A stretch of DNA of 64,000 nt from the NCBI RefSeq assembly GCF_014205215.1, contig NZ_JACHNC010000001.1:7684501-7748500 (forward strand), read 5' to 3'. This document shows positions 2,006 through 53,497 of the stretch, in pieces. Positions within the stretch are counted from its first letter, which is position 1. Every line of letters starts with the position of its first letter. The position numbers were made by a program, and so were the translations under genes. The notes below the pieces were generated by a model. That model saw only the letters and a program-made list of their open reading frames with translations, was not told where the DNA came from and did not search any database. This stretch comes from Actinoplanes lobatus. GTDB lineage: Bacteria; Actinomycetota; Actinomycetes; Mycobacteriales; Micromonosporaceae.

Positions 2006-2112
2006 CCTTTCTCCGGTACGGGCTACGCGAACCCGCCGTACAAGATTCGCGATCGTCTGCCCGGCGGGCCTTGTGCCGCGCCCGCCGGGCAGACCTGCCA
2101 CGCGAGCTCACC
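2006..2112 (-). repeat. Dispersed non-coding repeat, copy D (with perfect hairpin)
   Basis: On the minus strand this reads as a member of a repeat family found elsewhere in the window: a CCCGGCGGGCGCGGCAC module followed by a GCGTAGCCCGTACCGG-type end module. It holds a perfect 14-bp stem at 2056-2069 and 2080-2093 with a 10-base loop. A 26-bp segment at 2015-2040 is identical, inverted, to 31077-31102. It fills the gap between two convergent genes, so it may also act as a bidirectional terminator. Confidence 0.75.
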
Positions 2113-2134
2113 CCGAACGAAAGTCGTGCGCTGA

Positions 2135-2470
2135 TCAGCCCCGGGCGGTCCAGGTGGACAGCCACGTGGTCAGGGCGGTGTGGTCGGCCAGGCGGAAGTC
2201 GCCGTGCGGGTCCCAGCGGATCCAGTCCGGACTCAGCAGGCCCAGGGTGACCAGGGGACGGCTGTCGACGTCGTGGAGTTCGAGCCACAGGTCGGGCCAC
2301 TGCATCCAGTCCATCACGTCAGCGTGCGGGTCGGCGCGCAGGGCCTCGACCAGTGAGGTCACGGCCTCGTAGCGGGTGAGGTCGGCGAGTGGGGTGGACG
2401 GATCGGTCAGGACGCGGACGCGGCCGGTGTCGCGGATCAGGTGGGCGAGGTCGGCTGCGGTCGGGTGCAT
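2135..2470 (-). CDS. Small hypothetical protein
   Basis: The product is 111 residues, acidic and rich in Trp (MDWMQWPDLWLELHD, PDWIRWDPHGDF). No family is recognised with confidence and no transmembrane segment or signal peptide is visible. The start at the ATG ending at 2470 is tentative: there is no clear ribosome-binding site, and an in-frame GTG lies nine codons upstream. The gene is flanked by repeat copies D and E in opposite orientation, so the gene and its two repeats form an inverted-repeat-bounded unit. Confidence 0.6.
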   Translation of the reverse strand: MHPTAADLAHLIRDTGRVRVLTDPSTPLADLTRYEAVTSLVEALRADPHADVMDWMQWPDLWLELHDVDSRPLVTLGLLSPDWIRWDPHGDFRLADHTALTTWLSTWTARG

Positions 2471-2564
2471 TCGATCATGGTGGCAGGCCTGGACCACCGA
2501 TTCGCGCCGGTGGGCGCGCCGCGGCCCGCCGGTGGCAGGTGCTCGCGGGTCTGGTCCCGGTAGA

Positions 2565-2595
2565 GCGCGTAGCCCGTACCGGAAAGGGTTTGCTT
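2565..2595 (+). repeat. Dispersed repeat, partial copy E
   Basis: GCGCGTAGCCCGTACCGGAA and the following AGGGTTTGCTT match the terminal module of the repeat family seen at 2006-2112 (opposite orientation). The rest of the element is missing. It lies ten bases before the GTG at 2606, in a divergent gap. Confidence 0.6.
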
Positions 2596-2605
2596 AGATC
2601 GGCGG

Positions 2606-4009
2606 GTGACGATCAAAAGCCGGGTGCGCCGCGCCTATCGGGCCGGTACGCGCCTGGATCTGGCCGGCCGGACCGTGGAGGCGGCGTTTCTGGCCGGGCT
2701 GTTGCGGGGGCCGGGCCGCCTGGATCTGGCCAATGCGCGGATCACCGGCGCCCTGGATCTGACCGGCATGCGGATCGAGGCGCCGGTCCGGTTGCGGCGG
2801 TGTGTGTTCGAGCGGGAGTTGTGCCTGGATCACGCCGAGCTGTTGTCGGTGAACCTGGACGAGTGTGTGCTGCCCGGGATCGAGGCCGACGGGCTGCGGG
2901 TGGCGGGTGACTTCGCGGGCCGGGATCTGAGCGTCGGTGGCGACATCTGGATGTTGCCGGCCCGTATCGACGGGACCGTGGAGCTGGATCGCAGTGTCGT
3001 GCAGGGTTCGGTCTATCTGCAGCGGGCCGAGGTCGGCGGCGGTGTGATCATCCGGGACGCGACGGTCGGGCAGGGGTTGCGGCTGGCCGGTTCCCGGGTC
3101 GGCGGGAACGTGGATCTGACCAGGTCGAGGTGTGGTGCGGCGGCGGACACCGGGGCGGCCGTCAATGCCGGCGGGATGGTGGTCGGGGGTGGGTTCTTCA
3201 GCCACGATCTGGTCGCTGACGGCGAGGTCAACCTGATCGGTGCCCGGGTGGCCGGCAGTATCACGTTGCAGCGGGCGGTGCTGCGCGGCCGTGCGGGCCG
3301 GCATGCGCTGCTGCTGATCGAGACGCAGGCGCGGATGCTGACGTTGCGGCCGGCGGCGGAGTCGACGGGGACGATCAGTCTGCGTGACGCCCGGGTGGGG
3401 CGGCTGGTCGACGATCCGGTGAACTGGCCTAGCGGTTGCCGGGTGGAGCTGGACGGGCTCACCTATGAGCGGTTGACCCGCCGGTCGGAGGATGTGGACG
3501 GGTGGACGGCCGGGCAGCGTCTGGACTGGATGGCGCGGTTCACGACGGGGGCCGCGCTGGGGCCGTACGACCAGTTGGCGGCGGCGTTGCGGCGCGACGG
3601 CCGGGAGCAGGAGGCCCGGCAGGTGCTGGTGGTGCGCGAACGGCTGCGGCACCGGGCGAAGGGCCGGCTGGGCGCGCTGTGGGGTGCGGTGCAGAACGTG
3701 ACGATCGGGTTCGGTTACCGGCCGGGCCGGGCGCTGTTGTGGCTGCTGGCGGTGGTGGCGGCGAGTACCGGCTGGTTCGCCTGGTCGGGTCCGTTGCGGG
3801 CGGTGAAGCCGGACGAGTCGCCGACCTGGGATCCGTTCCTGTACAGCGTGGATGTGCTGGTGCCGCTGGTGGATCTGGGTCATGACAAGGCGTGGGATCC
3901 GGTCGGCGTGGACAAGGCGGTGACGCTGGCGGTGATGGCGGCCGGCTGGATCCTGGCGACCACCGTGGTGGCCGGTGCGGGCCGGGCGATCAACCGCGGC
4001 GGCCAGTAG
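2606..4009 (+). CDS. Beta-helix/pentapeptide-like protein with C-terminal membrane anchors
   Basis: The product is 467 residues. From about residue 15 to 290 it is a run of short, regularly spaced repeats with alternating Leu/Val and Gly/Asn (for example LDLANARITGALDLTGMRIE and VGQGLRLAGSRVGGNVDLTR), the pattern of a right-handed beta-helix or bactofilin-like fold. A charged helical segment follows (DQLAAALRRDGREQEARQVL), then two hydrophobic helices near 370-390 and 435-460. Similar actinobacterial proteins are often labelled membrane-associated oxidoreductase with no biochemical support. A scaffold role at the membrane is my inference. GTG start; the upstream GGCGG is a weak ribosome-binding site. 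Confidence 0.75.
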   Translation: MTIKSRVRRAYRAGTRLDLAGRTVEAAFLAGLLRGPGRLDLANARITGALDLTGMRIEAPVRLRRCVFERELCLDHAELLSVNLDECVLPGIEADGLRVAGDFAGRDLSVGGDIWMLPARIDGTVELDRSVVQGSVYLQRAEVGGGVIIRDATVGQGLRLAGSRVGGNVDLTRSRCGAAADTGAAVNAGGMVVGGGFFSHDLVADGEVNLIGARVAGSITLQRAVLRGRAGRHALLLIETQARMLTLRPAAESTGTISLRDARVGRLVDDPVNWPSGCRVELDGLTYERLTRRSEDVDGWTAGQRLDWMARFTTGAALGPYDQLAAALRRDGREQEARQVLVVRERLRHRAKGRLGALWGAVQNVTIGFGYRPGRALLWLLAVVAASTGWFAWSGPLRAVKPDESPTWDPFLYSVDVLVPLVDLGHDKAWDPVGVDKAVTLAVMAAGWILATTVVAGAGRAINRGGQ

Positions 4010-4010
4010 G

Positions 4011-7761: not shown

Positions 7762-7767
7762 GACCCT

Positions 7768-16367: not shown

Positions 16368-16557
16368 CCCCCGGCCGCGGCGGTGGCACTCCCACACGAG
16401 AGGCCGTGCGAGCGCGACTACCCCGGTCATAGCCGACGCCATCGTGTGCGCCTACCCGCCCTCCGATGACGGCCACGCGGGCGGCAGGAGATCAGTGGGC
16501 AGCGCCGAAGCGGCGGCACACGCCGGCGCGACGGCCGGCTGGGCCTGCCCGGCCACC

Positions 16558-16663
16558 GAGCTCAGCCCGGCGGGCGCGGCACAGGCGGGAGTGCCCGCCG
16601 GCTCGCGCGGCAGGGCGGAACGGTCCTGAAAACAACGGGACCGCATCACCCGTACCGGAAAGA
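16558..16663 (+). repeat. Dispersed non-coding repeat, copy A (longest)
   Basis: The first 36 bases (16558-16593, GAGCTCAGCCCGGCGGGCGC and on) are identical to 53392-53427, and similarity continues through GGCAGGGCGGAACGGTCCTG and AACGGGACC to the end module CACCCGTACCGGAAAG. The element contains a 9-bp CCGGCGGGC/GCCCGCCGG stem. It lies between convergent genes. Bases 16368-16557 show nothing else I can name. Confidence 0.85.
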
Positions 16664-16736
16664 AAGAAGCGGAAGCGAAACGCGGACATCGCCCACCGGC
16701 GCTCGCCGCGGGCCGGCAGCGCCACCTCGATACAGA

Positions 16737-17875: not shown

Positions 17876-17878
17876 AAG

Positions 17879-17889
17879 GCATATTATGC
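17879..17889. promoter_or_regulatory. 11-bp palindrome at the recombinase start
   Basis: GCATATTATGC is a perfect palindrome (one central base) four bases upstream of the recombinase ATG, in a short AT-rich patch that would also serve as the -10 region. An autoregulatory or recombination-linked site is possible. Confidence 0.4.
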
Positions 17890-28170: not shown

Positions 28171-28200
28171 ACGCTTCACGCGTACCGGGAAAGGGGTTTT
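28171..28200 (+). repeat. Dispersed repeat, partial copy F
   Basis: ACGCTTCACGCGTACCGGGA followed by AAGGGGTTTT matches the end module of the repeat family (compare CACCCGTACCGGAAAG at 16648). The upstream module is missing. It lies in a divergent gap. Confidence 0.5.
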
Positions 28201-30836: not shown

Positions 30837-31076
30837 ACAGGTCCGAGGGCAGGAAGCAGCCGTAATCCGGCGGCTGCGGACGCTGATCGTCTGGCCACGA
30901 TGGGCGGGCGCACACGGAACAAGGAGTGTGGACACGAGCTGCTGCGGTAACGCTGGTGGCAGCACACGTGATGACCCGCGGGCGCGCGGGCGGGCCGGGC
31001 GGTGGGTGGAGATCGGCGTGCAGGTGGACCGGCGGGCGCGCTACGGCCGTGTGCCGGCAGGTGGCCGCGGGGATGC

Positions 31077-31102
31077 TACGGCGGGTTCGCGTAGCCCGTA
31101 CC
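31077..31102 (+). repeat. Dispersed repeat, copy G (exact 26-bp match to copy D)
   Basis: The 26 bases are identical to the reverse complement of 2015-2040; the core is GGGTTCGCGTAGCCCGTACC. Upstream, CCGGCGGGCGCG at 31030 resembles the other module of the family. It lies between convergent genes, in a 277-base gap (30837-31113) with no other recognisable feature. Confidence 0.8.
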
Positions 31103-39461: not shown

Positions 39462-39823
39462 TGGACATCACGATCGACCCGGCGTCGGCCACACCACCGT
39501 ACGAGCAGGTGCGGCTGCACATCGCCGCGCTCGCCGCCGACGGTGTGCTGCCCGCCGGCACCCGCCTGCCCCCGGTCCGCCGGCTCGCCGAGGACCTGGG
39601 GCTGGCGGTGAACACGGTGGCCCGCGCCTACCGGGAGCTCGAGCAGGCCGGCCTCGTCGAGACGCGGGGCCGGCACGGCACGGTGATCACCGCGCGGGCC
39701 GGCGCGACGCCGGTCGAGGCCCAGCAGGCGGCCGCGGCCTACGCAACGCGGATCCGCGCCCTCGGCGTGCCGGCCGAAACGGCCCTGTCGCTGGTCAAGG
39801 CCGCCTTGGAAGACCAAACCTGA
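39461..39823 (+). CDS. GntR-family regulator (short form)
   Basis: The product is 120 residues with only the winged helix-turn-helix (PPYEQVRLHIAALAADGVLP, then LPPVRRLAEDLGLAVNTVAR and a TRGRHGTVI wing) and a short helical tail. It resembles the YtrA form at 7839. It overlaps the MFS gene stop by one base and so is made from the same transcript. No clear operator is visible. Confidence 0.88.
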   Translation: MDITIDPASATPPYEQVRLHIAALAADGVLPAGTRLPPVRRLAEDLGLAVNTVARAYRELEQAGLVETRGRHGTVITARAGATPVEAQQAAAAYATRIRALGVPAETALSLVKAALEDQT

Positions 39824-39825
39824 TT

Positions 39826-39927
39826 GGTACGGGTGAACCTCGTCCCGTTCTTTTCAGGACTGTTCCGCCCGGCCGGCGCGATCGGCTGCCTGCTGCGGCC
39901 GGTGCCGCGCCCGCCGGGCGCAGATCG
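39826..39927 (-). repeat. Dispersed non-coding repeat, copy C
   Basis: Read on the minus strand it runs through CCCGGCGGGCGCGGCAC, then GGGCGGAACAGTCCTG, AAAAGAACGGGACG and TTCACCCGTACC, matching copy A module by module. It lies between the convergent GntR and secreted-protein genes. Confidence 0.85.
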
Positions 39928-39931
39928 GTGG

Positions 39932-40705: not shown

Positions 40706-40809
40706 GGATCCTCCCTGCGACGTGGATCTGTGCCCGACCATAGGGCTCCGCGGATGCCCCGTCAGGGCATCGATCGGGTGTAACGGACATCCGACAGCGC
40801 GGCTGCGCC

Positions 40810-41502: not shown

Positions 41503-41545
41503 GGTCGCCGATCATGACGGATCGGCGGGCCGCCCGTCACCCGCT

Positions 41546-41938: not shown

Positions 41939-41961
41939 GCCGCCCAGGGTAGCGGCCACCG

Positions 41962-42828
41962 TCACTGCGGCGTGTCCCGCAGCACGGCGACGGCGGCGAC
42001 GGTGGCGTAGCCGCGCCACTCGACGGCGGCCGCCGGACTGTACGCCGGGAACGTGACCGTCCAGCCGCCGTCGGCCTGCTGTCCGGCCGCGAGCCGCTCC
42101 CGGTCGGCGGCCACCGCACCCGGATCGAACAGCTTGCGCGACGCCGTACCCGGGTGCGGGGTGAAGTCCAACGGGTACAGCACCTCACCGTCGGCGCCGC
42201 CCTCGACCGGGGTCGGCCCGTCCATGCGCACGAACCGGGCCAGCCGCTCCAGCAGCTGCGGCGCGTCGACCGCGTCGAGGAACCGCAACGCGAACATCAA
42301 CTCGTACGCGTGCGGCGCCGCCTCGATCCGCTCGATCGCGCCGAGGCAGTAGCCGGTGGCGGCGGCCAGCCACGGATGCCCGCCGACATCCGGCCGGTGC
42401 CGGGCCAGCCGGTGCGCGTGCCCCGCCAGCTGCGCGGTCATCTGCAACGACGACACGCCCGGGTCGGCGCCGGCCCAGTGCGGGGCACTGCCGGTGGCGT
42501 CGGCGAACGGCAGCGCGAACGGCATCCCGCCGTCGTCGAGGCTGTGCCGCATCAGCCAGTCCAGCAGCGCGACCGGCCCTGGCCCGGTGTCGCGGACCTC
42601 GGCCATCACCTCCAGGGCGTGCATGGCGGCGACCGGCTGGCTGGTCACCGACCGCAGGTCCGGCTCCAGCGCCCACCCGTACCCGCCGTCGGGGTTGCGG
42701 TAGCCGTCCAGCGCTGCCATCACATCCTGTGCGGGCAGGTCACCGAGCAGGTGGTGCAGCCGCCGCCGGTCCAGGTTGCGGGCGTTTCCAGCCGCGAACC
42801 TGACCGCTGCCGCGAGATCGAATCCCAT
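41962..42828 (-). CDS. Prenyltransferase/terpene-cyclase-fold (alpha-alpha barrel) protein
   Basis: The product is 288 residues. It has QW-like repeats of the alpha-6/alpha-6 barrel (YRNPDGGYGWALEPDLR, LAAGQQADGGWTVTFPAYSP, HSLDDGGMPFALPF). The domain is shared by squalene cyclases, protein prenyltransferases and many uncharacterised actinobacterial proteins. There is no DxDD catalytic motif, so it is probably not an active cyclase. GAGG lies eight bases before the ATG. Confidence 0.75.
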   Translation of the reverse strand: MGFDLAAAVRFAAGNARNLDRRRLHHLLGDLPAQDVMAALDGYRNPDGGYGWALEPDLRSVTSQPVAAMHALEVMAEVRDTGPGPVALLDWLMRHSLDDGGMPFALPFADATGSAPHWAGADPGVSSLQMTAQLAGHAHRLARHRPDVGGHPWLAAATGYCLGAIERIEAAPHAYELMFALRFLDAVDAPQLLERLARFVRMDGPTPVEGGADGEVLYPLDFTPHPGTASRKLFDPGAVAADRERLAAGQQADGGWTVTFPAYSPAAAVEWRGYATVAAVAVLRDTPQ

Positions 42829-42977
42829 CCGCTCATCCTCGCACCGTCCGGCCGCTCGGTCGTGCGAGCACATACGACACCCGCTCGGGCCAGTCGTCGA
42901 GGTCGCCGGCGGCGGTGGCCGCCGGGAACGCGCCGATCAATCCACCGGATCGTCGTCGGCATCGGATTGGCTTCCTG

Positions 42978-43028
42978 CCGATGTCGGGCGTACGGCGGGC
43001 TGCGGGCCCGCCACACACCCGACATCGG
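42978..43028. terminator. Long nested hairpin
   Basis: Two perfect stems nest: CCGATGTCGGG (42978-42988) with its complement at 43018-43028, and inside them GGCGGGC with GCCCGCC. A 5x5 internal loop separates the stems. It lies 70 bases after the multicopper oxidase stop and could end its transcript, though no U run follows. The rest of 42829-43097 shows no gene. Confidence 0.55.
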
Positions 43029-43097
43029 GCCCAGGCCGAGGAGCTGATGACGCGACGGGTTCAACTTCTCGTCGACAGCCCCCTCGAACCCTCGTGG

Positions 43098-44618
43098 TCA
43101 GGACATGACCATGAGGCCGAGCATCATGCCCTCGTCCTCGTGGATGACGTTGTGGCAGTGCAGCATGTACATGTACTCGTTGTCGCTGTAGTCGGTGAAC
43201 TGCATCTTGATCACGACTGTGGTGCTCGGCGCCACCTCGATGGTGTCCCGCCAGCCGGTGTTCGCGCCGGTCGGGGCGGAGCCGCCGATGGAGACCACTT
43301 GGAACGGCACGTCGTGCAGGTGGAAGTTGTGGTAGATGTTCGTGCTGCTGTTGGTGATCGTCCACTGCTCGATGGCGCCGACCGTGGTCATGACCGCGTT
43401 GGCGTCCATGATCTCCATGGTGGTGCCGGCGATCCCGTTGATGAGCATCGTTGCGCCACTGTTGCTGAGGGTGAAAGTGCGCGTGGTCGCGTCGGTGGCG
43501 TCGATGTCGCTGATCGTGTTGAGGGTGCCGGGAAGGTTGTCCGCCGCCTCGGTCGCGGTGCTGCTGACCGTCAGCATCGAAACGGTGTACCGGGTGCCGT
43601 TGGTGGTGTTGCGGACGGTGGCCCGCAACGTGACGGCGTCGTCGGCGGCTGTCAGGTCGAGCACGATCTCGGCCCGTTCCCCGGGGCTGAGTCGCAGGCT
43701 GGAGATCGAGATCGGTTCGGCCAGCAGCCCGGCGTCGCTCGCCACCTGGGTGAGGCTGCCGCTGTCGGTGAGGGCCAGCGTGATGCTGTCGGTGATCGAG
43801 GCGTTCAACAGGCGTAGGCGTACGCGGCCGTAGGCGACCTCCAGGGTCGGTGTCTCGTCGGTGGCGCTCATGCCGTTGACCAGGAACTTCACGGTGGACG
43901 CGGAGGCGGTGAAGGTGGCGTTGGTGGTGGCGAAGGCGCCGGCGCTGGTGACCGCGGTCGATTGCATGATGAGCGGGACGTCGTTGGCGCCGTAGTCGGT
44001 GGGCAGGGCCGCGTTCGCGTCCGATCCGTCGTCGACGATGAGCAGGCCGGCCAGGCCGAGTACGACCTGCTCCGTGGTGGTGCCGAGGCCGTGCGGGTGG
44101 TACCAGAGCGTGCAGGCCTCGCCCTGGTTGATGGTCGTGGCGGCGGACCAGGTGTCGCCGTCCTTGATGAGGTTCTGCGGCCCGCCGTCGGCGGACGGCG
44201 CGATGTGCAGGCCGTGCCAGTGCACCGTGGTCGCCTCGCCGAGGCTGTTGGTCACATCGAAGCGGACCGGCTCGCCGTCGCTGACGAGCATGGTGGGGCC
44301 CAGGAGGGTGCCGTTGTAGCCGGCGGTGTTGATCGTCTCGCCGCTGACCAGTGAGGTGTTGGTGCCGGTCTGCGCCTGCAGGGTGAAGACGGAGACGCCG
44401 TCCTCGACGGTCGGGTCCAGCCGATCGGGGATGGGCAGTGTGCCACCGGCGGCGGTCGCGGTGGTGGTCGCCTCGGTCGTGCCGGTGCCGGTCTCCTCGG
44501 CGAACGAGGTGCCACCGCCGATGCGGGCCAGAGCCGCGATGGCGCCGGCTCCGAACGCTCCGGCGAGGATCCGTCGGCGGGTGAGGCTGCTGTTCGAGGG
44601 TTTGCGGGTCTTTGCCAT
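43098..44618 (-). CDS. Tat-exported multicopper oxidase
   Basis: The product is 506 residues. A twin-arginine signal (LTRRRILAGAFGAG) is followed by three cupredoxin domains. Copper ligands are intact: HWHGLH at 133-138, WYHPHG at 172-177, NFHLHDVPFQV near 430 and the C-terminal HCHNVIHEDEGMM with the type-1 copper Cys, His and axial Met. The layout is that of bilirubin oxidase, CotA and CueO-like enzymes, which oxidise phenols or metals with oxygen. The sequence is rich in Thr and less GC-extreme than its neighbours. It stands alone, with no copper regulator nearby. An AT-rich patch at 44650-44700 probably holds the promoter. Confidence 0.93.
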   Translation of the reverse strand: MAKTRKPSNSSLTRRRILAGAFGAGAIAALARIGGGTSFAEETGTGTTEATTTATAAGGTLPIPDRLDPTVEDGVSVFTLQAQTGTNTSLVSGETINTAGYNGTLLGPTMLVSDGEPVRFDVTNSLGEATTVHWHGLHIAPSADGGPQNLIKDGDTWSAATTINQGEACTLWYHPHGLGTTTEQVVLGLAGLLIVDDGSDANAALPTDYGANDVPLIMQSTAVTSAGAFATTNATFTASASTVKFLVNGMSATDETPTLEVAYGRVRLRLLNASITDSITLALTDSGSLTQVASDAGLLAEPISISSLRLSPGERAEIVLDLTAADDAVTLRATVRNTTNGTRYTVSMLTVSSTATEAADNLPGTLNTISDIDATDATTRTFTLSNSGATMLINGIAGTTMEIMDANAVMTTVGAIEQWTITNSSTNIYHNFHLHDVPFQVVSIGGSAPTGANTGWRDTIEVAPSTTVVIKMQFTDYSDNEYMYMLHCHNVIHEDEGMMLGLMVMS

Positions 44619-44744
44619 GAGCCGAGAGATTCAATGTGGATCATGGCAGGAGCCTTGGCGGGCACTATCAAAAGGTTGTGCATCTAAATATTCGCTGAAA
44701 GTGATGACAAAGCCCGGCAGGTGATCGCGTCGCCGGCCGTACCA

Positions 44745-45458
44745 TCACCGGGGTTTTCGGCAGAGAAAGACCCGCTCACGGGCGGGCCGGTCCGGAGCCT
44801 GGCGCACGTCGGCGATCTCGAAGCCGGCGCCGGTGAGCGTGTCGCACAGTTCGTTGCGGTCGCGGAACCGCAGCGTCGAATCCGACTCGAGCACCTGCCC
44901 GCCGGGGAACGTGTAGGTGTACCGGAAGCTGACCAGCGGCAGCCGCACCCCGGTGAGCCGCCGCTGCCGGCGTACCTCGCCGACGCCGGGCACCGCCCGC
45001 ACGACCGGGCCGGTGTCGCGGGCCCACTCGTCCCACACCCGGTATTCGGGCCGCCGCGTCTCGAACACCAGGTGCCCGCCCGGTACGAGAACGTCGTACA
45101 GGCCGGTCAGTGTGTCCTGCCACTGCTGGTCGGTGAGGAACACCTGGGCGACGTTGCCGGTCATCACCGCCAGGTCGAACCGCTGGTCCGGTAGCGCCGG
45201 CAGCCAGGTCACCCGGTCCGCGCCGGGTTTGCCGCGGGCGATGTCGAGCGATGCGGCCGCCGGGTCGACGCCGGTGACCGTGCGGCCGTCCGCGGCCAGC
45301 CGCAACGCCAGGCAGCCGGTGCCGCAGCCCACGTCGACGATCGTGCGCGCGCCGAGTTCGGCGACGATCCGTTGGTAGGCGTCCAGATCGTCACGGTCGC
45401 CGTCGAACGTGTCGTACAGGGCGGCGAGCCGCGGATCGGCGAAGATCGCATCGGGCAT
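44745..45458 (-). CDS. Class I SAM-dependent methyltransferase
   Basis: The product is 237 residues. Motif I is TIVDVGCGTGCLALRLAADG, followed by VTGVDPAAASLDIARGKPG, FDLAVMTGNVAQVFL and LVPGGHLVFETRRPEYRVWD. The fold and motifs are complete; the substrate is unknown. It diverges from the small hydrolase gene at 45489. Confidence 0.92.
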   Translation of the reverse strand: MPDAIFADPRLAALYDTFDGDRDDLDAYQRIVAELGARTIVDVGCGTGCLALRLAADGRTVTGVDPAAASLDIARGKPGADRVTWLPALPDQRFDLAVMTGNVAQVFLTDQQWQDTLTGLYDVLVPGGHLVFETRRPEYRVWDEWARDTGPVVRAVPGVGEVRRQRRLTGVRLPLVSFRYTYTFPGGQVLESDSTLRFRDRNELCDTLTGAGFEIADVRQAPDRPARERVFLCRKPR

Positions 45459-45488
45459 GCATCGACGTTAGCCGTTACCCTCTCGTGG

Positions 45489-45983
45489 GTGACGCGATTT
45501 CTGCTGGTGCCCGGCCGTGGGGTGCCGTTTCCGAATCACTGGTCACGGCAGTGGGTGCGGGCCCACCGCGACCACACCTGGGCGCCGGAGCCGCCCGGCC
45601 CGCCCTATGTGGCCGGCGACCGGGTGGCCGCCCTGCATACGGCCATCGCGGCCGGCGACGCTCCGGCGGTCCTGATCGCACATTCGGCGGGTTGTCTCAC
45701 GGTGGCGTTGTGGGCCGCCCAGCACACCGGCCCGGTGGTGGGCGCGCTGCTGGTGACGCCACCGGAACGCGACGACATGCCGCGCTCGCCGCTGCCGTTC
45801 CGGTCGATCGCGGTGCTGTCGCGCAACGATCCGCACGCCACGTTCGCCTACGGTGAGCAGCTGGCCGGGCAGTGGGGCGCCGAGGTCCACGACGCCGGCC
45901 CGGTGGGGCATCTGGATTCGAGTTCCGGGTTCGGCCCGTGGCCGGAGGGCGAGAAGCTAGTGGCTAGGCTGGCCGCCCCTTGA
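45489..45983 (+). CDS. RBBP9/YdeN-type alpha/beta hydrolase
   Basis: The product is 164 residues. A nucleophile elbow appears as LIAHSAGCLTVALWA, a core segment as VGALLVTPPERDDMP and the His region as GPVGHLDSSSGFGPWPEG, all typical of the short RBBP9/YdeN serine hydrolases. GTG start. The last 20 bases overlap the end of the convergent DUF3626 gene. Confidence 0.88.
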   Translation: MTRFLLVPGRGVPFPNHWSRQWVRAHRDHTWAPEPPGPPYVAGDRVAALHTAIAAGDAPAVLIAHSAGCLTVALWAAQHTGPVVGALLVTPPERDDMPRSPLPFRSIAVLSRNDPHATFAYGEQLAGQWGAEVHDAGPVGHLDSSSGFGPWPEGEKLVARLAAP

Positions 45984-46848
45984 TCACCAGGATGTGCCAC
46001 AGATATTTGATCAGCTGCGGATCGTCGCCGTCGCGGGCCGCCCGCCCGAGCAGGGCCGCGTCCAGGACCTGTTCGCCGTAGCGGGCGGCGATGCGGCGGC
46101 CCAGCGCCACCGTCTGCGGGCCGCGCAACTCGTCCGGCAATTCGTCGGCGGGCAGCCGGAATCCGCCGTGCCAGCGCAGCGGCAACCCGAGAGCACGTAG
46201 ATGCCCTTCGTACGCCGTACCGCGGAATGAGGGGTCGGCGACGACGGCCGCGACGTCGCCGCTGAGGGTGAGACGATCGTGGATCTGCGTTTCGACGTAG
46301 TCGTCGAGGGCCCGGCCGGCCCGCGTGCGGGGCGCGCCGAGCGCGGCCACCCACGCGTCTACGCTGCTCGCGCTCACTCCCAGAGCGTTTCCGGTACGGG
46401 TGACCTGCGCGAGAAGCCCCTCCCAGACGGCGCCGAACGCGCCCGCCGTGCCCAGGATGTCCGGTTCGGTGTGGCTGTCGCCGAGGCTGAACGTGGCCCG
46501 CCGCAGGCAGTGCGAGCGCAGTTCGAGATGGCAGCTGCCGAACCGTGGCGCCGCCCCGTCGGGATGCCCGGCCAGGTTGAGCGCCCCGTAGACGGGCCGG
46601 CTGCCGCTGTCGCCGAACATGCGCTGTTCCCAGCGGGGCCGGTCGCCGCCGAGCCCGCCGTTGGAGATGCCGGTCTCGTACCGGGTGCGGTAGACGCCGT
46701 CCACGGCGAGGTGCTCGATCACCGTGCGGCCGTCGGCGAGCGGCCGGTCCGGGTGGAAGTTGACCGTGATCGGCGCGCCCGGCACCGGCCCGCCGGACGG
46801 AAAAAGCGCCCGCACGTGGGCGAGCGCTTTTTCCCCGGGCGTGGTCAT
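45964..46848 (-). CDS. DUF3626 protein
   Basis: The product is 294 residues. The N-terminus (GEKALAHVRALFPSGGPVPG, then ITVNFHPDR) and the core (RFGSCHLELRSHCLRRATFS, GDSHTEPDILGT) are those of DUF3626. Conserved His residues (FHPDR, SHCLRR, DSHTEP) hint at a metal enzyme, but no activity is known to me. The ATG lies five bases after the uppP stop, so it is probably the last gene of that transcript. Confidence 0.85.
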   Translation of the reverse strand: MTTPGEKALAHVRALFPSGGPVPGAPITVNFHPDRPLADGRTVIEHLAVDGVYRTRYETGISNGGLGGDRPRWEQRMFGDSGSRPVYGALNLAGHPDGAAPRFGSCHLELRSHCLRRATFSLGDSHTEPDILGTAGAFGAVWEGLLAQVTRTGNALGVSASSVDAWVAALGAPRTRAGRALDDYVETQIHDRLTLSGDVAAVVADPSFRGTAYEGHLRALGLPLRWHGGFRLPADELPDELRGPQTVALGRRIAARYGEQVLDAALLGRAARDGDDPQLIKYLWHILVIKGRPA

Positions 46849-46853
46849 GGCCG

Positions 46854-47690
46854 CTATTTGGCGGCGATCGTGTCGGTGGCCAGCAGGAGCAGCAGCAGCG
46901 AGCCGAGCGCCACCCGGTAGAAGATGAAGATGCTGTACGAGTGCTTGGACACGAACTTGAGCAGCCACGTCACCGACGCGTAGGCGACCACGAAACTGAC
47001 CACGGTCGCGACGATCGTGTTGGTCCAGCCGACACCGGCGGCGATCCGGTCGGCCTCGCTGACGCCCTGCAAGATTGATGCGCCGGTCAGCGCCGGGATC
47101 GACAGGAAGAACGACAGTTTCGTCACGGTCACCCGGTCGATGTCGCGCAGTAGGCCGGCCGACATGGTGGCGCCGGAGCGGGAGATGCCGGGGATCAGCG
47201 CCATGCACTGCACGGTGCCGATGACCAGCGTGTCCTTCCATGTGACGTCGTCCTGATGGCGGACCTGGGTGGCGGCGTGGTCGGCGAACGCCATCACCCC
47301 GGACCACAGGATCAGCGCCCCGGCGACGAACCACAGGCTGCGCAGGGTGCCCTCGATGGCGTCCTTGAACAGCAGCGCCGCGATCACGATCGGGATGGAG
47401 CCGAGCAGCACCGCCAGGCCGAACTTGAAGTCGATGTGTTCCCGGTGAGACTTGTTGAACAGGCCCTTGAAGAAGGCGGGCACCACCCGGGCGATGTCCT
47501 TGCGCAGGAACAGGATGGTGGCGAGCACCGCACCCGACTGGATGATCACCGTGAAGGCGGTGATGTCCGGGTCGTCGATGGTGTGGCCGAACAGCTTCTC
47601 CAGGATCGTCAGGTGCCCTGTGCTGGACACCGGGAGGAACTCGGTGACACCCTCGACCGCGCCGAGGATGATCGCCTCGACGAGACTCAT
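46854..47690 (-). CDS. uppP: Undecaprenyl-diphosphatase UppP (BacA)
   Basis: The product is 278 residues of an eight-helix membrane protein that removes a phosphate from undecaprenyl diphosphate to recycle the lipid carrier of the cell wall. The catalytic motifs EGVTEFLPVSSTGH (about 14-27) and PGISRSGAT (about 167-175) are intact. It is linked to bacitracin tolerance. The ATG at 47690 is chosen; a TTG four codons upstream is a possible alternative. The gene follows xerC after 60 bases. Confidence 0.96.
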   Translation of the reverse strand: MSLVEAIILGAVEGVTEFLPVSSTGHLTILEKLFGHTIDDPDITAFTVIIQSGAVLATILFLRKDIARVVPAFFKGLFNKSHREHIDFKFGLAVLLGSIPIVIAALLFKDAIEGTLRSLWFVAGALILWSGVMAFADHAATQVRHQDDVTWKDTLVIGTVQCMALIPGISRSGATMSAGLLRDIDRVTVTKLSFFLSIPALTGASILQGVSEADRIAAGVGWTNTIVATVVSFVVAYASVTWLLKFVSKHSYSIFIFYRVALGSLLLLLLATDTIAAK

Positions 47691-47750
47691 TTCCGTGCTC
47701 AAAACACCCGCCCGCTTTCCGTAGCCGGGTTCAGAGCATAGGGGGCCGTT

Positions 47751-48689
47751 TCACCCCCTGTTGCGGCGGGCACGGGCCGCCGCGATCGTGTACGCGGGGT
47801 CACGGTCCAAGTTGTAACGGTCACGGTCGTAGCGGCGGGTGGTACGCGGATCGGCGTGCCCCATGGCGTCCTGCACGTCTTCCAGGGGTACGCCTTCGGC
47901 GCGGGCCGTGATGGCGAACGAGTGCCGCAGCGAGTGCGGCGACAACCGGTCGGCCGAGGCGATCCCGGCCTCGCCGGCGAGCCTGCGGACCAGCCGGAAG
48001 ATGGCGTGCCGGTCGACGCGGGAGCCGGTCGAGGTGACGAACAGCGGCCCCGGCGCGCTGCCGCGTTCGGCCAGGTAGTCGTCGAGGGCCGCCGCCACGG
48101 CCGGGGTGACCGCCCGGCGGCGGGCCTTGCCGCCCTTGCCGGTGAACCGGACGGTCCGGTGGCCGCGTTCGTGGCCGAGGTCGTCGAGGTTCAGCCCGAC
48201 CAGCTCACCGACGCGCAACCCCAGATCGGCCAGCACGGTGATCATCGCGTGGGTGCGGCGGCCGGCGCGCCCGGCGGCCGCGAGCAGCGCGTCGACCTCG
48301 GCCGGGGCGAGCCCGACCGTGGACGGGTGGTCCCGGTCGACCTGGGGGCGGTCCGCGCCGCCGACCGGGTTCGCCGGCACCGCCCGCAGTTTGACCAGGA
48401 AGTCGTACCAGCTGGACAGGCCGGACAGTTTCCGGGCCACCGAGGCGGGCGCCAGCGGCCGGGCCTCCAGCTCGCGGGCGTAGGCGTTGACGTCCAGGAA
48501 CGAGGCGTGCAGTGGGTCGAGGTCACGGCCGGCGCACCAGGTGAGCCAGCCGTCGACGTCGCGCCGGTACGCCGCCCGGGTGTGGTGCGACAGCCGCCGG
48601 TTGGCCAGCCACGCGTCGGTGAACTCACGCGCGGCCGTGCCGATGACGGGTTCCCGGCCCGGGTGCGGCTGCAGCGACATGCCCGTCAT
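47751..48689 (-). CDS. Tyrosine recombinase XerC-like
   Basis: The product is 312 residues. The N-terminal core-binding domain (RLSHHTRAAYRRDVDGWLTW) and catalytic domain residues are present: Arg in LADLGLRVGELVGLNLDDLG, Lys in FTGKGGKARRR, HSLRHSFAITARAEG, GHADPRTTRRYDRDRYNLDR with the nucleophilic Tyr. Size and motifs suit a Xer-type recombinase acting at chromosome dimers or a close paralogue. It starts four bases after the ABC-F stop. Two ATG codons (48689, 48680) are possible. Confidence 0.9.
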   Translation of the reverse strand: MTGMSLQPHPGREPVIGTAAREFTDAWLANRRLSHHTRAAYRRDVDGWLTWCAGRDLDPLHASFLDVNAYARELEARPLAPASVARKLSGLSSWYDFLVKLRAVPANPVGGADRPQVDRDHPSTVGLAPAEVDALLAAAGRAGRRTHAMITVLADLGLRVGELVGLNLDDLGHERGHRTVRFTGKGGKARRRAVTPAVAAALDDYLAERGSAPGPLFVTSTGSRVDRHAIFRLVRRLAGEAGIASADRLSPHSLRHSFAITARAEGVPLEDVQDAMGHADPRTTRRYDRDRYNLDRDPAYTIAAARARRNRG

Positions 48690-48693
48690 CGTC

Positions 48694-50298
48694 TCAGTTC
48701 TCGATCAACTGTCCGTCCGCGACATGCCAGTGCCGGGTGTGTCCGATCGCATCGGCGAAATACCGGTCGTGGCTGACCACCACCAGCGTCCCCCGGTAGC
48801 GGCGCAGCGCCTCCTCCACCACGTCGAGTGCGGCGAAGTCGAGGAAGTTGGTCGGCTCGTCCAGCAGCAGGATCCGCGACGGGCTGTTGACCAGCACCGC
48901 GAGCAGCAGCCGCCGCAGCTCCCCCGCCGACAGGTCCCGCATCGGCGCGTCCCGCTGGTCGGCGTCGAACTGGTGCCCGGCCAGCAGCTTCTCCGCGTCG
49001 TCGATGTAGACCGGCACCCGCGCCCGGAAGAACTCCATCACCGTCGTGGTGTCGCGCAGCCCGTCGTCGGTCTGCGGCAGCACCGCCACCTCCGGATGCC
49101 GGTCCGCGATCGCCCGCAGCAGGGTCGTCTTGCCCGCCCCGTTACGGCCGGTGATCACGATACGGTCGCCCCGGGTGACGTCCAGGTCGACGTCGCGCAG
49201 CAGCTCCCGGTCACCGTGGGTGACGTTCAGGTCGCGAACCTTGAGGACGATCTCGCCCGGGTCGCCGTCGTCGCCGGGGAAGGCGAGCGTCAGCGGCGGG
49301 CGGGTCCGCGGCCGGGCGATCCACGACACCGACGCCATCTGCCGCCGCAGCCGCCGCTCCCGGACCTTCGCCTTACGGGCCACCAGCCGGGCCACGCGCC
49401 GCAGGTGCGGGGCGGTGGCCCCGGAACGGACGGTGTTCTCGACGCCGCGGGCGTACCCCTTGGTCTTCTCGATGTCGGCTTCCAGGCGGATCCGGTCCTT
49501 CTCCTGCGCCTCGTAGTCGAGCAGCAGCTTCTCCCAGCGCCGCTGCTTCTCGGCGCGGTAGGCGGTGTAGCCGCCGCCCGGATAGTCCTGCGGCTGCTCG
49601 TCGATGCCGTCCAGCTCGACGATCCGGGTGACGACCTCGTCCAGGAACGCCCGGTCGTGGCTGACCGCCAGCACCCCGCCCTCGAAATCGCGCAGCCACT
49701 GCCGCAGCCAGGCCGCGCCCTCGGCGTCGAGATGGTTCGTCGGTTCGTCGAGCAGCAGCAGGTCGGGTTCGTCGAGCAGGGCCCGGGCCAGCATCAGCCG
49801 CGCCTGCTCGCCGCCGCTGACCGCCCGCAGCGGCAGGTCGTCGTCGAGGTGGTCGATGTCCAGACGCTGCCGGATCTCGGTGAGCCGCGTCTCGGCCCTC
49901 CAGCCTTCCAGGGCGGTCCAGCGTTCCTGGACGGCCGCGAACTCGTCCAGGACGTCCTGGCCTTCGGCCAGTCGTTTCTCCAGCTCACGCAGCCTGGCCG
50001 TGACGTCCGCGAGCTCGCCGAGGCCTCCGCTGAGAAACGCGCCGACGCTTCCGTCCGGGTCCGGCATCCGTTGCGGGACGTACGCGACGCGCGTGCCCGT
50101 GGCGAGGCCGAGGTGCCCTTCGGTGGGGGTGAGCTCGCCTGCCAGCACGCGGAGCAGGGTGGTCTTGCCGGCGCCGTTGGGTCCGACGACCCCGATCCGG
50201 TCGCCGGGGCGCAGCACCAGGTCGAGGCCGGAGAAGAGCAGGTCACCGTCGTGGGCGCGGCCCAGCCGGACGGTTTTGAGATGAGCGGACTGTTGCAA
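48694..50298 (-). CDS. ABC-F family ATPase (ribosome-associated)
   Basis: The product is 534 residues with two ABC domains and no membrane part. The first domain has [23 protein letters not shown] and [11 protein letters not shown]; the second [23 protein letters not shown] and [12 protein letters not shown] charged linker ([20 protein letters not shown]) joins them and would reach into the ribosomal exit site. ABC-F proteins rescue ribosomes or protect them from antibiotics. The start is TTG, seven bases after GGAG. A leader of about 150 bases with short open frames precedes it. Confidence 0.92.
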
Positions 50299-50350
50299 GA
50301 TCTACTCCAGGGGAGAGTGCACCGACAGGGATCTGGGGGTCGGTTGTCTC

Positions 50351-50437
50351 TCACATCGCGCTGGTGCGCTCCCGGTTCACTCGGCGGTAGGTCCGGCTCC
50401 CACCATGCCCGCCGCTCCCGCCCCGCCGCAACCACAT
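50351..50437 (-). CDS. Possible leader peptide 1 upstream of the ABC-F gene
   Basis: A 28-codon frame (MWLRRGGSGGHGGSRTYRRV and eight more residues) lies in the leader of the ABC-F gene, 52 bases before its TTG. It overlaps a second short frame. Such frames often mediate antibiotic-dependent attenuation of ABC-F genes. Coding potential is not proven. Confidence 0.35.
   Translation of the reverse strand: MWLRRGGSGGHGGSRTYRRVNRERTSAM
50377..50406 (-). CDS. Possible leader peptide 2 upstream of the ABC-F gene
   Basis: A nine-codon frame, MVGAGPTAE, with GGGAGCGGCGGGC before its ATG, lies inside the frame of leader peptide 1 in a different register. Its position and good ribosome-binding site suit a regulatory leader peptide, but this is inference. 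Confidence 0.35.
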   Translation of the reverse strand: MVGAGPTAE

Positions 50438-50457
50438 TTTCCACTCACCCTTTTCGA

Positions 50458-50463
50458 ATAATA
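50458..50463 (-). promoter_or_regulatory. Possible -10 box for the ABC-F transcript
   Basis: TATTAT on the minus strand stands out in otherwise GC-rich sequence and would start a transcript with a leader of about 150 bases. There is no good -35. Confidence 0.35.
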
Positions 50464-50505
50464 CGGCCGCCGATGCATCCCCCCTCATCCTCACCCGATT
50501 CGGAT

Positions 50506-50541
50506 ACTACGGTTGACGTTATATGACGTCGCCCGTAGTTT
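50506..50541 (+). promoter_or_regulatory. Promoter and nested operator of the PadR/membrane-protein operon
   Basis: TTGACG (50513-50518), 17 bases, and TAGTTT (50536-50541) form a promoter whose start point would lie at or near the ATG at 50548, so the mRNA is probably leaderless. Two nested inverted repeats cover it: ACTACGG with CCGTAGT, and GACGT with ACGTC. They are good candidate PadR sites. No such sequence precedes the second pair at 51928. Confidence 0.55.
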
Positions 50542-50547
50542 GTTGGC

Positions 50548-51543
50548 ATGTCTGCTTCCGACTGGCCGCACGCCGAGCCCACCCTGGAGCGCGTCTACCG
50601 CCGTCTGCTGCACGCCTACCCACGCCCCTACCGGCGCCGCCACGGTGCCGAGATCGTCACCACCCTGCTGGAGATGGCCGAACCCGGCCAGCAACGTCCC
50701 CGCCTCGCCGACTCCTGGCATCTGATCGCCTCCGGCCTACGGCAACGCTTCCGGCTCCCACACCGCCCACTGGCCTGGGCGGCCGCGGTCCTGGCCCTGC
50801 TCGCCGGCGGCGCGTTCGGTGCGGCGGCCGGCTCATGGGCGGCCGCGCAAACCCTGGCCGACCTTCCCGGCCCCGCCCAGACCCTGGCCCTGCACCAGGT
50901 CGCCGCCGGCGCCACCGGCGGCCAGGTCAGCCTGAACCTCACCTCGGGCGCCCCGATCTCCGGCCCGGAATCCTTCGCCACCACGACCTTCACCACCACC
51001 ACCCCCTGGGACACCCGGCAGGCCCAGACCCGGCTCGCCGCCGACGGCTGGCGAATCGGCCCCCCGCCACAGAACCACGCCCGGTTCGAAGCCGTCCGCG
51101 ACGGCCTCACCGTGCTGGTGTTCGGATCCTCCGACGCCACTCGAACGGCGGTGCTGACCAGCACCACCGCCCTCGACAACGGCTGGCTGCGGCCGCTGAC
51201 CGTCCTCGGCCTGCTGGCCGGCGCCACCGCCGGCTGGCTGATCGCGGCCGCCGTCACCCAGCGCCGTTCCCGCCCGGCCACGGTCGCCGCCCTGGCCACC
51301 TTCGCCGCGCTCACCCTGCCGGTCTGGGCCGTCTACGACTCCACGGTCGCCACCCTGCTGCATCCCGGCCACGGTTTCGTGGCACACACCGTCCTGTGGC
51401 CGTCGTACTTCTGGCCGGTCGAGCCGATCTGGCTCAACACCGCGTGTGCGTTCACCGGCCTGGCCCTGGCCGCGATCACCCTCGCCCTGTCGCTGGTGGG
51501 CCAGCACCCCGCGACGACCATCTCCCGGCAGGTGGCGCTCTGA
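50548..51543 (+). CDS. PadR-linked membrane protein, copy 1
   Basis: The product is 331 residues. The N-terminal cytoplasmic part (PTLERVYRRLLHAYPRPYRR, then RHGAEIVTTLLEMAEPGQQR) resembles the permease prefix domain often found in proteins encoded beside PadR regulators. Four membrane helices follow, with an extracytoplasmic loop of about 100 residues after the first. There is no FtsX core, so it is not a complete permease. It overlaps the PadR gene by TGATG. A close paralogue follows at 51928. Confidence 0.82.
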   Translation: MSASDWPHAEPTLERVYRRLLHAYPRPYRRRHGAEIVTTLLEMAEPGQQRPRLADSWHLIASGLRQRFRLPHRPLAWAAAVLALLAGGAFGAAAGSWAAAQTLADLPGPAQTLALHQVAAGATGGQVSLNLTSGAPISGPESFATTTFTTTTPWDTRQAQTRLAADGWRIGPPPQNHARFEAVRDGLTVLVFGSSDATRTAVLTSTTALDNGWLRPLTVLGLLAGATAGWLIAAAVTQRRSRPATVAALATFAALTLPVWAVYDSTVATLLHPGHGFVAHTVLWPSYFWPVEPIWLNTACAFTGLALAAITLALSLVGQHPATTISRQVAL

Positions 51544-51845
51544 TGCAGGAGCCGACGTTTCTGATCCTGACGGCGCTGGCCGCTCAGCCTTTGCACGGTT
51601 ACGGCATCGTCCAGTCCGTGATCGCCCTGTCCGAGGGCGAGGTGAAGCTACGGCCGGGAACCCTGTACGGGGCTTTGGACCGGCTTGCCGAGCAGGGCCT
51701 GATCGAGGTCGAACGTGAGGAGGCGGTCGAAGGTCGTCTTCGCCGTTACTACCGGCTCACCGACGGCGGCGCGGCCGCCCTTGCCACCGAGGTGCAGCGG
51801 CTGCGCCGCCGTGCGGCCGCCGCGGAGACCCAGCTCAAGGACCGC
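51530..51845 (+). repeat. 316-bp near-perfect duplicate, first copy
   Basis: By reading, it differs from 52898-53213 at only two positions (a Lys and a Leu codon, both silent). It spans the last bases of the membrane gene and nearly all of the PadR gene. Confidence 0.9.
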
Positions 51846-51878
51846 CGCGGCATCGTCCCCGGCCTCGGCACCGCCTGA
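51543..51878 (+). CDS. PadR-family transcriptional regulator, copy 1
   Basis: The product is 111 residues. The winged helix is clear (PTFLILTALAAQPLHGYGIV, then LRPGTLYGALDRLAEQGLIE) with a YYRLTDGG turn and an Arg/Ala-rich helix for dimer formation. It is coupled to the membrane gene upstream by TGATG. PadR proteins usually repress their own operon; the site at 50506 is the candidate. Its first 101 residues are identical to those of the second copy; only the tails differ. Confidence 0.93.
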   Translation: MQEPTFLILTALAAQPLHGYGIVQSVIALSEGEVKLRPGTLYGALDRLAEQGLIEVEREEAVEGRLRRYYRLTDGGAAALATEVQRLRRRAAAAETQLKDRRGIVPGLGTA

Positions 51879-51927
51879 GCCGGGCCACCACCCCCAGCCT
51901 CGCCCGACCCACCGAAAGTTGCCGAAC

Positions 51928-52911
51928 ATGTCTACCTCCGACTGGCCGAGCGCCGCCCCCACGCTCGAACACCACTACCGGCGGCTGTTGAACGCCTACC
52001 CGAGCCACTACCGGCGCCGCCATGGCGCCGAGATCGTCACCACCCTGCTCGAGATGGCCGAACCCGGCCAGCAACGCCCCCGCCTCGCCGACTCCTGGCA
52101 CCTGATCGCCTCCGGCCTACGGCAACGCCTCCGGCTGCCCCGCCGCCCCCTGGCGATGCTGGGCGCCGCCCTGGCCCTGCTCGCCGGTGCGGCGTTCGGC
52201 GCGGCCGCCGGCTCGTGGGCGGCCTTCCAGACCTACACCCCGCTGCCCAGCCACGATCAGGCCACGGCCGTCCACCGGCTGACCGCCGGCGTACCCGGCG
52301 CGGCGCCGTACGTGCGGACACTGCGCGGTTTCTACGACACCGGCCCGATGGTCATGGCCGACAGCAACCTGTCCGGCTGGCAGGCCGCCCCGGCCCGGGC
52401 CCGGCTCGCCGCCGACGGCTGGCAGAACCTGCCGGTGGCGCCACCCGACCGCGGCTACGAACTCCTGATGCGACGCGACGGCCTGCGCATCCACGCGGTC
52501 ACCGACGTCACCCGTTCCACCGTCTGGTCCACCGTGTCGGCCGTCGACAACGGATGGATGCGGCCGCTGGTCGTGGCCGGTCTGCTGGCCGGCGCCCTCA
52601 CCGGGTGGCTGATCGCGACCACGGTCGCCCAGCGCCGTTCCCGCCCGGCCGCGGTGACCACCGTGTTCGCCGTCGCCGCGCTGACCCTGCCGGTGGTGTC
52701 GATCGCCGACAACCTGACGAACATCTTCCACCGCGCCCACCAGGGAGCGACCGTGCATCACGTGCTGATCACATCGTCGTACTGGCCGTCCGGCCCACTG
52801 TGGCTCAACCCGGCGCTCACCGTCGCCGGTCTGGCGCTGACGGTCGTCACGGTCCTGGTGTCCCGGCTCTCCCGCCCGTCCGGGCCTTCGATGCGGGAGG
52901 TGGCGCTCTGA
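51928..52911 (+). CDS. PadR-linked membrane protein, copy 2
   Basis: The product is 327 residues, a paralogue of the protein at 50548. The N-terminal prefix (residues 26-70) is almost identical at the DNA level, while the outer loop and last helices have diverged widely. Topology is the same: four helices with a large external loop after the first. It follows the first PadR gene by 49 bases with no visible promoter and is coupled to the second PadR gene. Confidence 0.82.
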   Translation: MSTSDWPSAAPTLEHHYRRLLNAYPSHYRRRHGAEIVTTLLEMAEPGQQRPRLADSWHLIASGLRQRLRLPRRPLAMLGAALALLAGAAFGAAAGSWAAFQTYTPLPSHDQATAVHRLTAGVPGAAPYVRTLRGFYDTGPMVMADSNLSGWQAAPARARLAADGWQNLPVAPPDRGYELLMRRDGLRIHAVTDVTRSTVWSTVSAVDNGWMRPLVVAGLLAGALTGWLIATTVAQRRSRPAAVTTVFAVAALTLPVVSIADNLTNIFHRAHQGATVHHVLITSSYWPSGPLWLNPALTVAGLALTVVTVLVSRLSRPSGPSMREVAL

Positions 52912-53213
52912 TGCAGGAGCCGACGTTTCTGATCCTGACGGCGCTGGCCGCTCAGCCTTTGCACGGTTACGGCATCGTCCAGTCCGTGATCGCCCTGTCC
53001 GAGGGCGAGGTGAAATTACGGCCGGGAACCCTGTACGGGGCTTTGGACCGGCTTGCCGAGCAGGGCCTGATCGAGGTCGAACGTGAGGAGGCGGTCGAAG
53101 GTCGTCTTCGCCGTTACTACCGGCTCACCGACGGCGGCGCGGCCGCCCTTGCCACCGAGGTGCAGCGGCTGCGCCGCCGTGCGGCCGCCGCGGAGACCCA
53201 GCTCAAGGACCGC
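52898..53213 (+). repeat. 316-bp near-perfect duplicate, second copy
   Basis: Matches 51530-51845 with two silent differences. The identity stops abruptly before the final PadR codons. Confidence 0.9.
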
Positions 53214-53255
53214 ACCGTTCCCGGCTTCGGCCAGCCCGCCCCCGGCGTCGCCTGA
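52911..53255 (+). CDS. PadR-family transcriptional regulator, copy 2
   Basis: The product is 114 residues, identical to copy 1 up to LKDR and different only in its last dozen residues. The two regulators must bind the same DNA and can form mixed dimers. The reason for keeping both is not obvious; see the finding on sequence homogenisation. Confidence 0.93.
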   Translation: MQEPTFLILTALAAQPLHGYGIVQSVIALSEGEVKLRPGTLYGALDRLAEQGLIEVEREEAVEGRLRRYYRLTDGGAAALATEVQRLRRRAAAAETQLKDRTVPGFGQPAPGVA

Positions 53256-53391
53256 CACCCCGCGTGCAGTGCCGATCGTCGCCACGGGGGCGACCGAACG
53301 GCCACAGCAGGCGAAGGTCAGCATGGCTCACCGGGGCGGTGAGCGCCTGATCGACGCGGTGGAGACAGCGCTGGGGACCGGCTGGACCGGC

Positions 53392-53497
53392 GAGCTCAGC
53401 CCGGCGGGCGCGGCACAGGCGGGAGTGGGCAATCAGCTCGCGTGGCAGGGCGCAACGGCCGTGAAGAAACGGGACGGGCGTCACGCGTACCGAAAAA
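53392..53497 (+). repeat. Dispersed non-coding repeat, copy B
   Basis: The first 36 bases equal 16558-16593 exactly. Then GCTCGCGTGGCAGGGCGCAA, GAAACGGGACGG and CACGCGTACCGAAAAA follow as in copy A, with changes. It lies between convergent genes; the rest of 53256-53502 shows no gene. Confidence 0.85.

Follow-up and report, generated by a model that had tools for sequence, protein, structure and literature searches.

Repeat copies in the window

The window, a 64,000-nucleotide stretch of the Actinoplanes lobatus genome, harbors seven non-coding sequences (A to G) that share a core of about 110 bp, denoted T, which reads ACCGATCTnnGCCCGGCGGGCGCGGCACnGGC ... GCGGnACGG ... CACGCGTACCGGAAAGG in an alignment of 30 copies. 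An earlier note on this DNA had listed the seven sequences, and all of them were found in place. Six match the improved profile described below, whereas the seventh (28171-28200) consists of the GTACC end only and is unmatched.

Copy A (2006..2112, minus strand; profile match 2008-2093) is a shortened variant whose GTACC end comes within 2-5 nt of the stop of a luciferase-like gene (1026-2003, plus strand), and it has an A. flavus counterpart at L154:9266-9359. The degenerate copy B (2499..2595, plus strand; profile match 2499-2587, E=0.017) is located with its GTACC end about 10-20 nt ahead of the start of the gene 2606-4009 (plus strand); the earlier note had placed this copy at 2565-2595. 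Copies A and B are probably two inverted arms of one pair, which we can only infer because a small called ORF (2135-2470, minus strand) sits between the arms; this ORF has neither a Pfam match nor, in the A. flavus stretch L154, a BLAST match at E<=1e-30. In the adjoining region 2594-4009 two long ORFs overlap on opposite strands. The plus-strand ORF 2606-4009 has a pentapeptide-repeat match, and 51 of the 97 substitutions relative to A. flavus fall on its third positions, so that it is the likelier gene.

Copy C is full-length (16553..16664, plus strand; profile match 16556-16662; A. flavus counterpart L153:5156-5261) and is flanked on its outer side by a degenerate 45-bp-type module O, GAAGCGGAAGCGAAACGCGGACATCGCCCAC, with approximate limits 16664..16700 (plus strand) as judged from the alignment of 30 copies with their flanks. 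A tyrosine recombinase gene (16931-17989, minus strand; Phage_integrase by Pfam) ends about 265 nt from copy C, and since about 10 kb of other DNA follows beyond the far side of the copy in A. flavus, the locus may be an integration site. Fragment D, ACGCGTACCGGGAAAGG (28171..28200, plus strand), is the GTACC end just mentioned and lies in the gap before the gene 28269 (plus strand), an acyltransferase by Pfam. A guanidine-III riboswitch (49.1 bits) is found at 27439-27508 on the minus strand.

The degenerate copy E (31029..31102, plus strand; profile E=0.0017) is positioned 12 nt from the stop codon of a called gene (31114-31614, minus strand). The GTACC end of the full copy F (39821..39928, minus strand) lies directly at the stop codon of a GntR gene (39461-39823, plus strand), and the A. 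flavus counterpart of this copy is shortened (L151:6592-6673). In the full copy G (53390..53500, plus strand; profile match 53391-53498; A. flavus counterpart L152:125-232) the distance between the GTACC end and the stop codon of the gene 53503-54279 (minus strand) is 3-5 nt. The two long identities reported earlier also exist, namely 36 bp between the copies at 16558 and 53392 and 26 bp between those at 2006 and 31077.

Family size and placement relative to genes

In order to estimate the size of the family, 100 evenly spaced 20-kb stretches were analysed together with the window, 2.064 Mb in total. The search profile was built from 114 T copies from four species, and matches were accepted at E<=0.05. 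This yielded 64 T copies, six of them inside the window, from which a total of about 300 copies is estimated for the sampled 10.4-Mb genome. Similarity thus extends well beyond the seven sites of the window, and copy C (16558-16663) as query gave at least 40 matches at E<=8.5e-11 in the same genome, the best 40 of 293 candidates being scored. In the plasmid and phage collections searched copy C had no match, and searches of open-licence PubMed Central papers brought up no description of this family.

All placement tests rest on genes called by a codon-usage script, the calls being rough (the Pfam-supported gene 28269-29039 was missed). Of the 64 copies, 61 could be classified; two others are located at stretch ends and one within a called gene. 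According to the earlier note, full copies lie only between convergent genes. By the gene calls the five longer copies of the window do so, but the gap at 2006 depends on the unsupported ORF 2135-2470. In the sample and window together 33 of 61 copies are convergent, 24 tandem and 4 divergent, which amounts to a strong bias and not to a rule. Outside the window, convergent gaps hold 28 of 55 copies, tandem gaps 24 and divergent gaps 3, corresponding to 21, 18 and 3 of 42 distinct gaps. As convergent gaps make up 18% and divergent gaps 27% of the intergenic length (gaps >=60 bp), the convergent excess is significant by copies (p=3e-8) and by distinct gaps (p=2e-6), with the window left out of both tests. 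Orientation of the neighboring genes is therefore not random, although exclusivity does not hold.

The orientation of T itself is biased as well. In the 33 convergent copies the median distance to the stop codon is 15 nt for the GTACC end versus 189 nt for the other end (Wilcoxon p=3.5e-5). Tandem gaps follow no clear rule, with the GTACC end pointing toward the stop in 14 copies and toward the start in 10; with the 4 divergent copies added to the latter, a total of 14 have this end toward a start by the automatic gene calls. A pure preference for CTAG targets was considered and rejected as the sole cause of the convergent excess: the sample contains 441 classified CTAG sites, 101 of them at stop codons, and the remaining sites include only 33 in convergent gaps against 156 in tandem and 77 in divergent ones.

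Architecture of the complete unit

Gaps with two or more copies depict a common arrangement, as in 12 of 13 such gaps a minus-strand copy is followed by a plus-strand copy, with the GTACC ends directed outward; the probable pair A/B is absent from these 12 due to the small called ORF between its arms. In nine pairs examined the interiors measure 467-1474 bp, contain no called genes and have sequence in common. Tandem units of 70 bp were detected by TRF in four of the nine interiors, and seven aligned interiors share a central module containing a 48-bp palindrome, GATCTTGRACG...CGTYCAAGATC. The full unit can accordingly be written as O (45 bp) - T - S (70-bp tandem units) - M (48-bp palindrome) - S' - T' - O', with inverted arms. 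Terminal inverted repeats are present at L287 (45-nt arms), L118 (77- and 71-nt arms) and L111 (84- and 34-nt arms). The smallest version, L287:1499-1605, is 107 bp long and consists of O and an inverted O with the T end between them, the arms being 80% complementary and 17 nt apart.

Module O is found outside T in many copies and ends at a sharp outer boundary, CTAGAGATC, with the tip CTAG (30 tips aligned). In 14 of these 30 tips a coding stop lies within 14 nt of the tip, and in 10 it is exactly the TAG of the tip, whereas TAG accounts for 317 of 1743 stops in the sample. An O-bearing query was used to collect the 30 tips by similarity. A strict O pattern identifies 10 O-bearing copies in the sample, five of which have a called stop nearby, TAG in three cases; for the 54 sample copies without the strict pattern the numbers are 39 stops and 8 TAG. 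Since the TAG count under the strict pattern is low, the link between tip and stop codon leans mainly on the 30 tips fetched by O similarity.

Two loci illustrate this link. At L118 a transporter gene ends in ..EPVRQMSAL* at the tip TAG, while its A. flavus equivalent ends in ..EPART* and that of genome G053, in which the family model finds no match, in ..REPAAR*. At L287 the gene ends in ..LTRLGPVGA* at the tip, versus ..LTRLS* in G004 and ..LTRI* in G059, and the A. flavus end differs again. CTAG is present at both tips of L287; no syntenic empty site was found in A. flavus, G004 or G059, and since the other flank is non-syntenic the locus of these relatives does not represent an empty site.

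The central palindrome also occurs on its own. The pattern GATCTTGRACG-26 nt-CGTYCAAGATC spans 48 bp in 19 of 19 sample cases (for example at L070:16195-17058, L067:2645-2692 and L031:8819-8866), with no match in the window. Of 67 Actinoplanes genomes only four contain it, namely A. lobatus with 84 copies, A. flavus with 33, G052 with 14 and G062 with one, and the reversed control pattern had no matches. Convergent gaps contain 13 of the 19 palindromes of the sample and make up 9 of the 14 distinct gaps concerned (p=2e-4), and for 9 of the 19 no T is found within 1.5 kb. Among 22 different 48-mers, positions 8 and 41 are occupied by G-C in 10, A-T in 8 and A-C in 4. The palindrome seems to be a second gene-end family, and one that truly forms a hairpin.

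RNA folding and terminator patterns

T has almost no consensus structure (RNAalifold, -0.7 kcal/mol for 114 copies). The strongest co-varying column pair forms a standard pair in only 6 of 114 copies, and the next co-varying columns (4-7, 20 and 26-31) are linked many-to-many and therefore reflect subfamilies. Among the first 30 copies aligned, none of 12 pairs was changed on both sides. In 60 of these copies the z-scores of the minimum free energy average -0.53 on one strand and -0.50 on the other, 13% and 17% of the values being below -1.5. Some single sequences do fold well, namely copies F (39821-39928, z -3.3) and C (16556-16662, z -2.7), two examples of the central palindrome (-7.5 and -6.9) and, most strongly, the minimal unit L287 (-9.4), while copy G (53391-53498) reaches -1.0. 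The repeat is unmatched in Rfam within the window at gathering scores, where the guanidine-III riboswitch is the one match, and within L111 and L120 at E<=1.

As regards the bidirectional terminator that the earlier note had proposed as one possibility, a hairpin followed by a T-tract is not conserved among the copies; of the window copies scanned, F and G, the former has matches and the latter none. Terminator-like patterns number 8 versus 3.7 expected (sd 2.5) in the window at 39700-54000, two of them overlapping at copy F, and 2 versus 0.5 expected at L118:15340-16240.

Comparison with A. flavus and distribution in Actinoplanes

The genome of A. flavus NEAU-H7 (G019) was compared in blocks which are 86-96% identical to the A. 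lobatus genome after an 84% filter. Among 17 sites, 10 are shared, 3 are recognised only in A. lobatus and 4 only in A. flavus, and many copies are thus old and inherited. The A. lobatus-only copies are the second arms of L118 and L111 and the window copy at 2499, of which A. flavus retains the GTACC end. At L118 the interior is likewise present in A. lobatus and absent from A. flavus. None of the sites compared proved to be a clean empty site showing a target duplication. L078 was rejected as an empty site in A. flavus, the difference being due to a gene duplication with the T copy conserved at L166:9633-9741; here (L078:14545-15288 and L166) a gene beside T has an extra similar neighbor in A. 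flavus relative to A. lobatus.

Within the 10 shared pairs conservation is unevenly distributed. An 18-bp block, GCCCGGCGGGCGCGGCAC, is 96% identical and GTACCGG 89%, whereas the other seven segments are 61, 66, 69, 71, 75, 81 and 87% identical, the lowest value belonging to the segment beside the 18-bp block. Both members of each pair had been recognised by the profile, which favors the 18-bp block in these figures; in one of the 10 pairs the block is decayed.

A sequence-only model, which loses weak matches to its filters, detects the family at E<=1e-4 in 33 of the 67 Actinoplanes genomes, 15 of which carry at least 10 copies; four genomes hold at least 61 copies each, and 34 of 67 have no family match at this threshold. 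Among 150 Micromonosporaceae genomes from 44 genera, Actinoplanes included, a single genome outside Actinoplanes has one weak match (E=3.7e-5). Stretches of G044 and A. aureus NEAU-A11 (G015), picked for their matches, contain 23 copies, of which 15 are convergent, 7 tandem and 1 divergent, with three inverted pairs.

Interpretation

The copies are rather probably arms and remnants of a non-autonomous mosaic repeat, largely specific to the genus and REP/BIME- or MITE-like in character, which resides at the 3' ends of genes. Its inverted arms, its sharp outer tip and the gains and losses between sister species support the earlier suggestion of a dispersed small mobile element tolerated near convergent gene ends. 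Such a repeat would spread or be exchanged between sites and would settle at or next to stop codons, where the TAG of the tip could become the stop of the gene. It would be purged from promoters and coding DNA, purifying selection presumably having shaped its placement, and once settled it would decay to single T copies. An enzyme acting in trans would have moved it. IS630 was rejected as donor, as the sole DDE_3/IS630-type gene has terminal repeats unrelated to the mosaic ends, and the proteins encoded next to T include no transposase in the 25 of 77 families listed (59 of 91 proteins scanned). The 10 of 17 sites shared with A. flavus, the failure to find a clean empty site with target duplication and the count of only 3 TAG stops in 10 copies with the strict O pattern also weigh against this reading. 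What counts against a purely passive element is the conserved 18-bp block, a putative protein-binding DNA site, which exceeds the need of a dead element. This constrained block and the stop-hugging end may leave room for a genuine gene-end function.

Such a function could be that of a factor-dependent terminator or transcription barrier between convergent genes, amplified as useful, with T read from the stop outward as stop - GGTACG - C-rich 110 nt - GCCGCGCCCGCCGGGC; we regard this as unlikely. It agrees with the proximity of the GTACC end to the stop codon, with the high identity of the 18-bp block in the 10 shared copies and with the excess of terminator-like patterns given above. Furthermore, of 250 stops that border on convergent gaps of 60 bp or longer, 20 are followed by GGTACG within 20 nt and 3 by its reverse CGTACC, and in RNA sense T contains 43% C, 31% G and 10% A, compared to 36%, 35% and 15% after convergent stops without T. 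The strongest sign beyond T itself comes from the GntR gene, where 5 of the 7 Actinoplanes orthologues inspected (out of 80 loci fetched) have GTACG no more than about 15 nt behind the stop; the profile recognises T at this position only in A. flavus among them. The strongest sign to the contrary is the weakness of the GGTACG excess where T is missing (6 versus 3 at 207 convergent stops, 9 versus 2 at 463 tandem stops). The nearly balanced orientation in tandem gaps, the missing conserved fold, copy G with its lack of a terminator-like match and the 34 of 67 Actinoplanes genomes without a family match also speak against it.

A transplantable gene-end cassette, in which GGTACG immediately behind the stop and a GCCCGGCGGNCGC block some 80-100 nt further on would be read by a putative protein that ends or blocks transcription between convergent genes, and would be carried between genes by a modular repeat whose tip brings the stop, appears doubtful. 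Equally concerned with the conserved block is the proposal, improbable in our view, that T is a putative site of a DNA-binding protein which organises the chromosome or relieves supercoiling between convergent genes and that was spread by selection; a gyrase-type role has been proposed for the BIMEs of E. coli. A GCCCGGCGGNCGC-like core in most of 43 aligned copies from four species, the identity of the block in orthologous copies and the convergent enrichment are consistent with this proposal, but that identity was calculated for pairs recognised by the profile in both species, and since 34 of 67 Actinoplanes genomes have no match such a role is not essential in the genus. That each copy encodes a structural non-coding RNA, as the earlier note had considered, is highly improbable: in spite of the few well-folding sequences, consensus folding, covariation and z-scores largely rule out a structured RNA for the 110-bp T.

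A block that is conserved within otherwise fast-diverging DNA offers a direct way of finding the protein, if there is one, by which gene ends are read in these antibiotic-producing bacteria.

Comparison with known repeat systems

The repeat resembles neither an intrinsic terminator, as a GC-rich hairpin with a T-tract is not conserved among the T copies, nor a structured RNA of Rfam, as no covariance model matches it in the window, L111 or L120. MITEs are characterised by terminal inverted repeats, target duplications and a cognate transposase. Like these elements, the Actinoplanes repeat is non-coding, has inverted terminal arms and exists in a minimal hairpin form of 107 bp (L287); unlike in them, no target duplication was found at the sites compared and no cognate transposase among DDE_3/IS630-type genes. 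BIMEs and NIME-type intergenic mosaics are modular mosaics of small inverted units between genes, and the Actinoplanes repeat is likewise modular, intergenic and built from inverted units. Its modules and their sizes differ, however, with 70-bp tandem units and a 48-bp central palindrome.

The closest correspondence is found with REP elements. As described in PMC3733652, these occur in convergent and unidirectional gaps near gene 3' ends and in dimers, and the terminus of GTAG REPs often supplies a TAG stop codon; REP-like gene-end repeats are described there mainly in proteobacteria, and the main text of that paper mentions neither Actinobacteria nor Actinoplanes. Like the GTAG and CGTC super-families of REP, the Actinoplanes repeat consists of many dispersed non-coding copies that border the 3' ends of genes, both in convergent gaps and in unidirectional ones; it also occurs in dimers, and its tip, like that of GTAG REPs, can supply a TAG stop. 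Unlike REP, T is about 110 bp long and has no conserved palindrome of 20-40 bp, the inverted arms belong to the composite and are joined by a common interior (467-1474 bp in nine pairs), and the outer tip CTAGAGATC (CTAG) and the T end CGTACC carry no GTAG or CGTC tag. As the repeat behaves like REP without the REP palindrome or tag, we read it as a non-autonomous mosaic element at gene ends. That a repeat of a large actinomycete is placed like REP but built differently suggests that such elements can rewrite stop codons and C-termini and that unrelated repeat families have a common niche at the 3' ends of genes.
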